Positions 35,510 to 61,453 of a stretch of 64,000 nucleotides of DNA are shown here, in pieces (the first letter of the stretch is position 1; every line of letters starts with the position of its first letter). Under the pieces are notes generated by a model, which was not told the DNA's origin, did not search any database, and saw nothing but the letters and a program-made list of their open reading frames with translations. The stretch is taken from the NCBI GenBank assembly GCA_009929485.1, contig SAAJ01000017.1:1-64000 (forward strand), in the 5' to 3' direction. Position numbers and translations under genes: made by a program. Origin of the DNA: Negativicutes bacterium (GTDB lineage Bacteria; Bacillota; Negativicutes; Anaeromusales; Anaeromusaceae).

Positions 35510-35855
35510 TGGTGGAGGCGAGGGGAGTCGAACCCCTGTCCAGAAGCATTGCCATATAGGTGTCTCCGAGCGCAGTCGCTGATTTAGATTTCGCCCCGTT
35601 GCCGCCCACCGACAGGCTGCGCTGACGCTATCTCGATAAAGTTTCCCTGTGGGTCCTCCGAGAATTGGACTTCAGGTATCCCGCATTGTGACGAGACAGC
35701 TTCCCCGCGGGAGGGAGAAACTGGCCCGTTAGCATTAAGCTGCTAAAGCGTATTCTTCGTTGGCAATTAAAATTGTCCCACCGTCTTACGGGCAGATGGA
35801 ACCCCGGCTCGCTACCCATACCACAACCACCCCTGTCGAAAACCAGTACGCCCCC
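35510..35855 (-). ncRNA. ssrA: tmRNA
   Basis: A one-piece tmRNA of about 346 nt for ribosome rescue. The 5' end GGGGGCGTACTGGTTTTCGA (35855 downward) pairs with the 3' acceptor side, which ends CGCCTCCACCA with encoded CCA at 35510. A TTCGACTCC T-arm is visible. The tag frame (35764-35735) encodes ANEEYALAA then TAA. Its 3' end is the presumed att site of the islands to the left. Confidence 0.97.
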
Positions 35856-35944: not shown

Positions 35945-37063
35945 CTATCTCGTTTTGCTCCTAGCTTTGCCTTCTTTTCCTTGCTTCTTCGCATACATAA
36001 GCGCATCGCTGTGCTCCACCATTTCGCGCACGCTTTGATAGCCTTCGTCCAAGGTAGTAAGTCCATAGCTGAAACGAATCGTATATGGCAGTTGAAGCTG
36101 ACGGGTATGCGTCAAAATTCTCTCTTGCAAAGCCTCCACATACCGTTGCAAGACCTCGGGTCTTTCTTCCTGCAACAATACTAAGAATTCATCCCCTCCC
36201 AAACGTACCGCCAAGCCTTTACCGGCAAAGGTTGCCGCCAAGCTTTGCGCGAACAGCTGCAAAGCGCGATCCCCTTCATGGTGACCGAAAGAATCGTTAA
36301 TTTGTTTAAAATCATCCAGATCAATATTAAGAGCGGCTAATTTCCTGCCTGTCTTGCGTTGAAACGCAGCTAAATATTCTTCATAAGCCATGCGGTTAGC
36401 CAAGCCGGTCAAGGGATCCCTTTTCGCTTGGTTATGGACAATATATACATAATTAATGACCAAGGCAATCGTTACCCCAGACCAGATAAAATGCGATAAC
36501 TGAAAAAGAGAGAACAGCAAGGGACTTCCGGAAAGCATTCCCAGCACCAAGCATTCTTCTCGCGTCACTTTCCAGCGTCCCGCATAAATCACAAGCAAAT
36601 TTACCAGATAATAGAATCCGGTAGTCAAATAAGAAAAAGACGCTAAAAGGCTTTGGGCTTCTCCATGACCTACTTCTGTCGTTGAAGGAGACAATAAGTA
36701 GCTAACCGCCGCAATCAGCAAATTCAGCAGCAACGGCAAGCTTAATCTTGACCATTTTCTACTTTGAGAGGAATCATATCGAAAAACACGTTGCTGCGAA
36801 TATAGAGAAATGCAAAAAGGAAGCACTGGCGCCAAGGCAAAGCCTAGCACTTCTATAATTCTTTGAAAACCGCCAGCTCTTTGATATTCTGGAGCCGCAA
36901 AAAAGACACTGAACGTTTCCAAAACCAAGATCAACAAAGTCAACAACAATAATACCAGGAAGAGAGGATTTCCTTGCTCACGCCGTTCCAGCTTCAGGCA
37001 GGCATGAATCGCAATGCTTACCAATAACAGAGTCAAATAGATATTCATTTGTACGGCAAACAC
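35945..37063 (-). CDS. membrane diguanylate cyclase (GGDEF)
   Basis: A 372-aa enzyme making cyclic-di-GMP from GTP. Seven or eight hydrophobic segments fill residues 1-195, forming a 7TM-like sensor. The GGDEF domain starts at about 205 (DPLTGLANRMAYEEYL) and has the intact active site GGDEF at 289-293. I see no RxxD inhibitory site just before it, so product inhibition may be weak. It could be one source of signal for the riboswitch at 54337. The start may be the internal MNIYLTLL. Confidence 0.93.
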   Translation of the reverse strand: MFAVQMNIYLTLLLVSIAIHACLKLERREQGNPLFLVLLLLTLLILVLETFSVFFAAPEYQRAGGFQRIIEVLGFALAPVLPFCISLYSQQRVFRYDSSQSRKWSRLSLPLLLNLLIAAVSYLLSPSTTEVGHGEAQSLLASFSYLTTGFYYLVNLLVIYAGRWKVTREECLVLGMLSGSPLLFSLFQLSHFIWSGVTIALVINYVYIVHNQAKRDPLTGLANRMAYEEYLAAFQRKTGRKLAALNIDLDDFKQINDSFGHHEGDRALQLFAQSLAATFAGKGLAVRLGGDEFLVLLQEERPEVLQRYVEALQERILTHTRQLQLPYTIRFSYGLTTLDEGYQSVREMVEHSDALMYAKKQGKEGKARSKTR

Positions 37064-54286: not shown

Positions 54287-54315
54287 TTGACAATAGACTC
54301 TGCTGTCTATATACT
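54287..54315 (+). promoter_or_regulatory. sigma-70-type promoter of the riboswitch transcript
   Basis: TTGACA (54287-54292), 17-bp spacer, TATACT (54310-54315). It lies about 20 bp before the riboswitch. An upstream inverted repeat AGGACT/AGTCCT is at 54243-54264. Confidence 0.8.
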
Positions 54316-54336
54316 ATTTTATAGATATTAATTTTT

Positions 54337-54415
54337 ACCAAGGCAAACTTCGCGAAAGCGGAGGACGCAAAGCCATGGGTCTACAGGAGATTCTCCCATG
54401 ACCGCCAGGCTGCCA
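54337..54415 (+). ncRNA. cyclic-di-GMP-I (GEMM) riboswitch
   Basis: The GEMM-I signature is plain: AAGGCAAAC, a CGAAAG tetraloop region, GGACGCAAAGCCATGGG, then the P3 arm closing with CCCATGACCGCCAGGCTGCC. It binds cyclic-di-GMP and controls the transcript downstream. No terminator is seen between it and the 48-aa gene, so translational control near the ribosome site (AAAGGAGCG) is likely. Confidence 0.93.
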
Positions 54416-54486
54416 AAAGATAGTATTTAGTCTTTGGTCTGCTTCTCAGCGCTCAAAAGTTGCCGGTCAACAAAGGAGCGTTTATC

Positions 54487-54633
54487 ATGAAAAATGGATC
54501 TACCGCCATGGAGTCATTGCAAAGTCTGGAAACATTCTTCACTAGCATTTGCAAAGATGCCGTTCTTTCGGCGCATGTGCAAAAGCACTCGCAGGAAATT
54601 ATTGACGCCATGCTGCATATTACAAAAAAGTAA
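54487..54633 (+). CDS. 48-aa protein controlled by the c-di-GMP riboswitch
   Basis: Small acidic helical protein (TAMESLQSLETFFTSICKDA, then HVQKHSQEIIDAMLHITKK). CAAAGGAGCG precedes ATG 54487, and a strong terminator follows immediately, so it is the only gene of the riboswitch transcript. There is no signal peptide or known domain. Targets of GEMM riboswitches are usually motility, adhesion or envelope genes; this one is unknown. Confidence 0.8.
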   Translation: MKNGSTAMESLQSLETFFTSICKDAVLSAHVQKHSQEIIDAMLHITKK

Positions 54634-54640
54634 GTTAAGT

Positions 54641-54685
54641 AAAAGCCCTGTTGCTTGCCGTCGAAACGGCAGCAGCAGGGCTTTT
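54641..54685. terminator. terminator of the 48-aa gene
   Basis: AAAAGCCCTG and CAGGGCTTTT form the outer stem, with TTGCCGT/ACGGCA inside around CGAA. It is bidirectional and also faces the convergent gene at 54715. Confidence 0.88.
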
Positions 54686-54714: not shown

Positions 54715-55065
54715 TTATGCTTCCGTAATTTCGGAAAAATAAATAACCGTTACCAAGTCCTCCATCGTCAACGCTTTGTTGTAAATGCTTTCAAAAAAAC
54801 GCAATAACGCTTCTACCGAATCAATATCCGGATTCTGATGCTGCAAATCTTCCATGGTCAGCTGGGAAAAGCGTTTCGTCTTCGTCCGGTCAACACTGGC
54901 AGCATATAGCTTGCGTTTAGGCCCCATGCGCTTACCCACCGTAATCCAGACTACTGAATTTTCCGGGTATATGTTGCGTACATCTCCTAAACGCACTGTA
55001 CAATTTTTAGTCCGGGCTATAAGCAGTTTTTCATGATGCGGCGATTGAAAGTTAAGAGCAAACAT
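54715..55065 (-). CDS. ASCH/PUA-like protein
   Basis: A 116-aa protein beginning MFALNFQSPHHEKLLIARTKNCTVRLGD, with WITVGKRMGPKRKLYAASVDRTKTKRF. This is the ASCH-like beta-barrel pattern (pyrophosphate- or RNA-associated PUA fold), followed by a helical C-terminus ending LVTVIYFSEI. AAAGGGGGA precedes ATG 55065. The role is unknown; RNA binding is suggested by the fold. Confidence 0.65.
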   Translation of the reverse strand: MFALNFQSPHHEKLLIARTKNCTVRLGDVRNIYPENSVVWITVGKRMGPKRKLYAASVDRTKTKRFSQLTMEDLQHQNPDIDSVEALLRFFESIYNKALTMEDLVTVIYFSEITEA

Positions 55066-55235
55066 AATATCCCCCTTTAGCAACATTCACTTTTATTTGT
55101 AATCAGTATAGCTTTTTTTGTATAGCATTGCAAAACATTCATTTGCTTTTCCCTTTTCAAATACGCCGCAACTGCAATCCTCTTGCGACTTTGTTTATTC
55201 TGCTCGCACATTTCTAAAATTAAGACAGGAAAATT

Positions 55236-61324: not shown

Positions 61325-61346
61325 AAAATTTAGAATCATATAGCAA

Positions 61347-61432
61347 GCTAGGGGGGCCAGAAGCGGCTGGCTGAGATACGGATCCTCATTCCGTGACCCT
61401 TTGACCTGATCTGGATTATACCAGCGTAGGAA
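61347..61432 (+). ncRNA. TPP riboswitch (THI element)
   Basis: The conserved parts are GGGGGGCC...GGCTGGCTGAGA, then ACCCTTTGACCTGATCTGG and ATACCAGCGTAGG. It binds thiamine pyrophosphate. The terminator that follows (61454-61484) is the expected expression platform. Confidence 0.97.
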
Positions 61433-61453
61433 AAGCTCCCATGCATGCCATGC

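Follow-up and report, generated by a model that had tools for sequence, protein, structure and literature searches.

Several class I c-di-GMP riboswitches of C. difficile precede small orphan proteins, among them 58 aa proteins without conserved domains (PMC11477304). Four of these riboswitch/small-protein loci, Cdi1_8 to Cdi1_11, are duplicates (PMC3649979). The class I switches of this organism are mostly OFF switches (PMC6200980). Among openly licensed papers, we found none on GEMM-I small proteins in Negativicutes or on the 48-aa unit described here.

The unit lies in a 64-kb stretch of DNA (64,000 nucleotides, hereafter the window) from a 3.2-Mb draft genome of the class Negativicutes, whose family consists of a single genus of anaerobes with four genomes. 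As at the C. difficile loci, the GEMM-I aptamer serves a single small protein, one without a known domain. The arrangement is therefore already known from C. difficile, and the 48-aa unit is a new example of it. The C. difficile loci are near-identical duplicates in a clostridium and encode 58 aa proteins, whereas here there is one locus per genome, in Negativicutes, encoding 48 aa; the proteins are likened by arrangement and size, not by sequence. The pattern taken from C. difficile, in which the aptamer is immediately followed by a short frame under purifying selection, was found in each of the four genomes. The features of the locus are as follows.

54113, minus strand: start of an MFS transporter gene, neighbour of the unit
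54287-54315, plus strand: sigma-70-type promoter (-35 TTGACA, 17 nt, -10 TATACT; 11 of 12 consensus positions)
54332-54417, plus strand: GEMM-I (c-di-GMP-I) riboswitch aptamer (RF01051, 81.5 bits, E = 1.8e-14)
54418-54486, plus strand: expression platform, from aptamer to start codon, assigned by folding of four orthologues
54448-54482, plus strand: Shine-Dalgarno-sequestering hairpin (AGCGCUC ... GAGCGUU, inner GUUG:CAAC), predicted in most folds
54472-54478, plus strand: Shine-Dalgarno sequence AAAGGAG, with 8 nt spacing to the start codon, invariant in four genomes
54487-54633, plus strand: 48-aa protein-coding gene, with an ATG start (GTG in one relative)
54641-54685, plus strand: intrinsic terminator, an inverted repeat (-35 kcal/mol, z = -7.66)
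54715-55086, minus strand: convergent neighbouring gene of 123 aa

The sequence-only reading had described a complete monocistronic unit with a consensus promoter, a clear GEMM-I aptamer and a strong terminator, and each of these elements was recovered. Both flanking genes are on the minus strand, so the unit is monocistronic and nothing else is cotranscribed with it. The four loci of the genus, when aligned, are identical at both promoter hexamers, and a promoter scan found one minus-strand promoter-like site at the locus, a weak one. None of 200 shuffled sequences folds as well as the terminator, a hairpin that a simple terminator scan missed owing to its stem and loop limits. Since its 5' arm is A-rich and its 3' arm U-rich, the terminator is possibly bidirectional and may be shared with the convergent gene. 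In a metagenome-assembled genome of Negativicutes outside the genus (L127), this convergent neighbour is present at 66% identity, but neither aptamer nor open reading frame (ORF) lies beside it.

The covariance-model match to RF01051 covers model positions 1-87 of 87 and scores far above the gathering cut-off of 35 bits. A G at the ligand-specificity position of the aptamer (CCAAGGCAAAC) is found in all four orthologues; we take this position to be equivalent to G20 of Vc2, where G versus A separates c-di-GMP from cAMP-GMP types. Only 3 of 86 aptamer sites (3.5%) vary among the four genomes. By its full-length match, its specificity G and its sense orientation upstream of a gene, the element resembles RF01051 riboswitches generally, and on this sequence basis it is assigned to the c-di-GMP-I family, from which we infer that it responds to c-di-GMP. 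It differs from other members in that it would regulate a genus-specific 48-aa orphan. Among the other GEMM-I aptamers of Negativicutes, A in place of G at the specificity position occurs at eight loci (L003, L004, L048, L049, L055, L058, L059 and L089); two of these (L003 and L049) have same-genus orthologues with G, which suggests that recognition has recently shifted between c-di-GMP and cAMP-GMP.

Evidence that the ORF encodes a selected protein comes from the same four genomes. The protein (MKNGSTAMESLQSLETFFTSICKDAVLSAHVQKHSQEIIDAMLHITKK) is present in all of them at 96-100% identity, behind a promoter and aptamer that are likewise kept. The sequence-only reading had named a lack of conservation of the 48-aa frame behind orthologous riboswitches as the result that would speak against it; in 4/4 genomes the frame is intact behind the aptamer. 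Variable sites account for 37-40% of the flanks and 12% of the ORF. The 17 variable ORF sites are distributed 5/0/12 over codon positions 1/2/3, and the only amino acid replacements are S/T swaps and I/L. Pairwise dN is 0-0.036 and dS is 0.03-0.53 over the 48 codons (dN/dS ~0-0.07). This third-position bias and low dN/dS show that the ORF encodes a selected protein, which lies behind an aptamer that is itself under selection.

Conservation is strong within this one genus and appears to be limited to it. The proposed search for the protein behind GEMM elements in related species recovered it in the four genomes of the genus and, with convincing support, in none outside. Searches found no convincing relative outside the genus in 300 genomes of the class, nor, with a profile, in 348 genomes of the phylum. 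The conserved peptide patterns of the protein, which reach close relatives only, were found in no genome outside the genus among 84,980 species genomes. The best weak extra-genus matches had E-values of 7e-4 and 8e-4, calculated per genome among the 348 genomes of the profile search, and the first of them contains an in-frame stop. No GEMM-I element was found at the weak extra-genus loci scanned (four from the phylum search and three from the class search).

The lack of a known domain, noted at the outset, was borne out by Pfam, NCBIfam and PDB searches, which gave no credible match; PDB sequence matches were at chance level, and DUF6918 (15.4 bits, E 0.026) stayed under its cut-off of 27. The protein is charged and soluble-looking, without a long hydrophobic stretch. 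AlphaFold, given four near-identical sequences, predicts a single helix over residues 3-47 (pLDDT 82); a helical hairpin would fit too, as two hydrophobic stretches are separated by a polar one. We propose that the protein is soluble, helical and genus-specific. Binding to a partner protein is its probable mode of action, given that a single helix or helical hairpin is predicted and catalytic or membrane features are absent. This role is suggested by size and shape only. It is improbable that the protein has instead diverged from a known family of small helical proteins, such as the Spo0E-like phosphatases, or from a HAMP-like fragment. The motifs SQEII, which we liken to the SQELD motif of Spo0E, and LSAHVQKHSQE look Spo0E/HAMP-like by eye, and 6 of 11 positions are identical to a segment of a GEMM-controlled methyl-accepting protein of the same genus (HAMP region by eye). 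However, Pfam gave no such match to the protein at E up to 10, PF09388 (Spo0E-like) matched nothing over its cut-off anywhere in the genus, and the HAMP-segment score of 19.0 bits lies among those of 20 shuffled queries, which spanned 16.8-21.3. Both origins thus lack statistical support.

Control of the 48-aa gene is probably exerted at translation, since the Shine-Dalgarno sequence sits in a conserved hairpin and the leader carries no terminator. The hairpin is kept in 4/4 genomes, which are closely related and make up the whole sample for its conservation. In folding calculations, the leader segment GCUUCUC(C)GC is able to pair with an aptamer strand, GCGGAGGACGC. In three genomes, leader GCUUCUCCGC of the free RNA pairs with this strand, the aptamer is destroyed and the Shine-Dalgarno stem is shortened. 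In the four genomes, imposing the aptamer makes the Shine-Dalgarno sequence costlier to open by a predicted 2.1, 4.8, 2.7 and 0.5 kcal/mol, and 8, 0, 0 and 7 of 60 leader shuffles, in the same order, reach the real rise. The effect is weakest in one genome (G003), where its sign depends on which transcript end is chosen. In the window strain, A54448 replaces a C needed by the anti-aptamer helix and weakens it, and 8/60 shuffles do as well. Whether or not the aptamer is formed, folding predicts a largely paired Shine-Dalgarno sequence, which leaves the amplitude of the switch unaccounted for.

These calculations weakly favour repression upon c-di-GMP binding. The sigma-70-type promoter would drive a short mRNA with a c-di-GMP-I aptamer leader and the 48-aa protein as its only gene. 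In the absence of ligand, the 3' strand of the aptamer P1b hairpin would be engaged by leader segments, which would weaken the Shine-Dalgarno hairpin. Bound c-di-GMP would lock the aptamer, so that the Shine-Dalgarno hairpin would form in full and translation would drop (OFF switch). With moderate confidence, we consider a translational OFF switch controlling a partner-binding helical protein the best explanation of the locus as a whole.

The opposite sign of control is unlikely, though it deserves serious consideration. In an ON switch, c-di-GMP would form P1, free AGUCUUUGG and expose the ribosome-binding site through kinetic folding or other pairing. Folding shows that a leader hairpin, CCAAAAGAU..AGUCUUUGG, competes with P1 in 4/4 genomes, opening is slightly easier with the aptamer formed for some transcript ends in G003, and class I ON switches exist, e.g., upstream of CD630_19900 in C. 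difficile (PMC6200980). On the other hand, aptamer formation makes Shine-Dalgarno opening harder in most calculations. There is little probability that a leader-internal terminator controls transcription, in place of control at translation. Other GEMM-I leaders of the same genome (L001 and L003) have, by eye, terminator-like hairpins and T-tracts after the aptamer, but neither the sequence nor a terminator scan revealed an intrinsic terminator, or a hairpin followed by a T-run, between 54418 and 54486.

It is very unlikely that the transcript serves mainly as a regulatory RNA, i.e., a riboswitch-controlled sRNA or antitoxin RNA like RCd11/RCd12 of C. difficile, with an incidental or dual-use frame. 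Some class I riboswitches drive type I antitoxin RNAs (PMC11477304), and the transcript is short, monocistronic and strongly terminated. Yet the codon bias, the low dN/dS and the conserved Shine-Dalgarno sequence and start codon point to selection on protein, and the codon pattern of the ORF in particular disfavours a type I antitoxin RNA. The DNA sequence of the locus shows no sign of a toxin frame, and the 48-aa protein does not have the character of a type I toxin, a small hydrophobic membrane peptide.

As for the c-di-GMP context of the unit, the genome contains 39 GGDEF matches and five GEMM-I elements. A membrane diguanylate cyclase had been reported 17 kb from the unit, and a GGDEF gene is indeed located at 35945-37063 (minus strand); with so many GGDEF matches and GEMM-I elements in the genome, it carries almost no weight and is no evidence of a dedicated link. 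A similar N-terminus lies, by eye, directly behind GEMM-I in another Negativicutes genome (L039). The 64-kb window also contains a TPP riboswitch aptamer (61340-61450, plus strand, 69.3 bits) and a tmRNA gene (35510-35855, minus strand, 178.6 bits).

GEMM-I elements are carried by 77 of 380 Negativicutes genomes. At 37 of the 112 GEMM-I loci read, the best-scored first frame is a complete ORF of no more than 100 aa, although a few low-scoring ones may be spurious. Several unrelated families are represented among these small ORFs. One family with a single transmembrane segment (alignment A2; 46-67 aa, motif KS.F.K....VEIR.W, members at L133-L152) was found by whole-genome search at 20 places in 19 genomes, including the window's own (L146, G000:C23:6727-6900), and has no Pfam or NCBIfam match. 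GEMM-I lies upstream on the same strand at 19 of the 20 places, an association that is partly built in, as the query alignment was drawn from GEMM-I loci, although the whole-genome search could find members elsewhere. At several A2 places, genes for HD-GYP, EAL-HDOD or HD-GYP-N-like proteins come next, of which the HD-GYP and EAL-HDOD ones were named by eye. Helical proteins of 53-65 aa behind GEMM-I (L027, L038, L087, L107, L118 and L119), grouped by eye, show a pattern like LQQLVKKYF.EASD..IE.I..EL..EIE and may be a second family.

The A2 units, the 53-65 aa helical units and HD-GYP-N-like units of 56-60 aa resemble the 48-aa unit in that GEMM-I is followed by an ORF of 43-74 aa. The 48-aa protein is unrelated to them in sequence, and scores for its kinship to other GEMM-driven small ORFs were within the range of shuffled queries. 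Several of those units are followed by genes for c-di-GMP-degrading enzymes, unlike the 48-aa gene, which stands alone.

Orphan small proteins are hard to assign to a pathway; here, regulation would place the 48-aa protein in a c-di-GMP programme, and the strong selection on it indicates importance to the cell. With the many other GEMM-I small ORFs of the class, it provides a short list of testable c-di-GMP microproteins, the strongest of which is the A2 family, with GEMM-I upstream nearly throughout and HD-GYP or EAL genes often beside it. As a tentative proposal, Negativicutes c-di-GMP-I riboswitches may form a dedicated output layer driving unrelated microprotein families that adjust c-di-GMP or surface-life machinery through partner binding, with the 48-aa protein possibly a recently arisen, genus-specific member.
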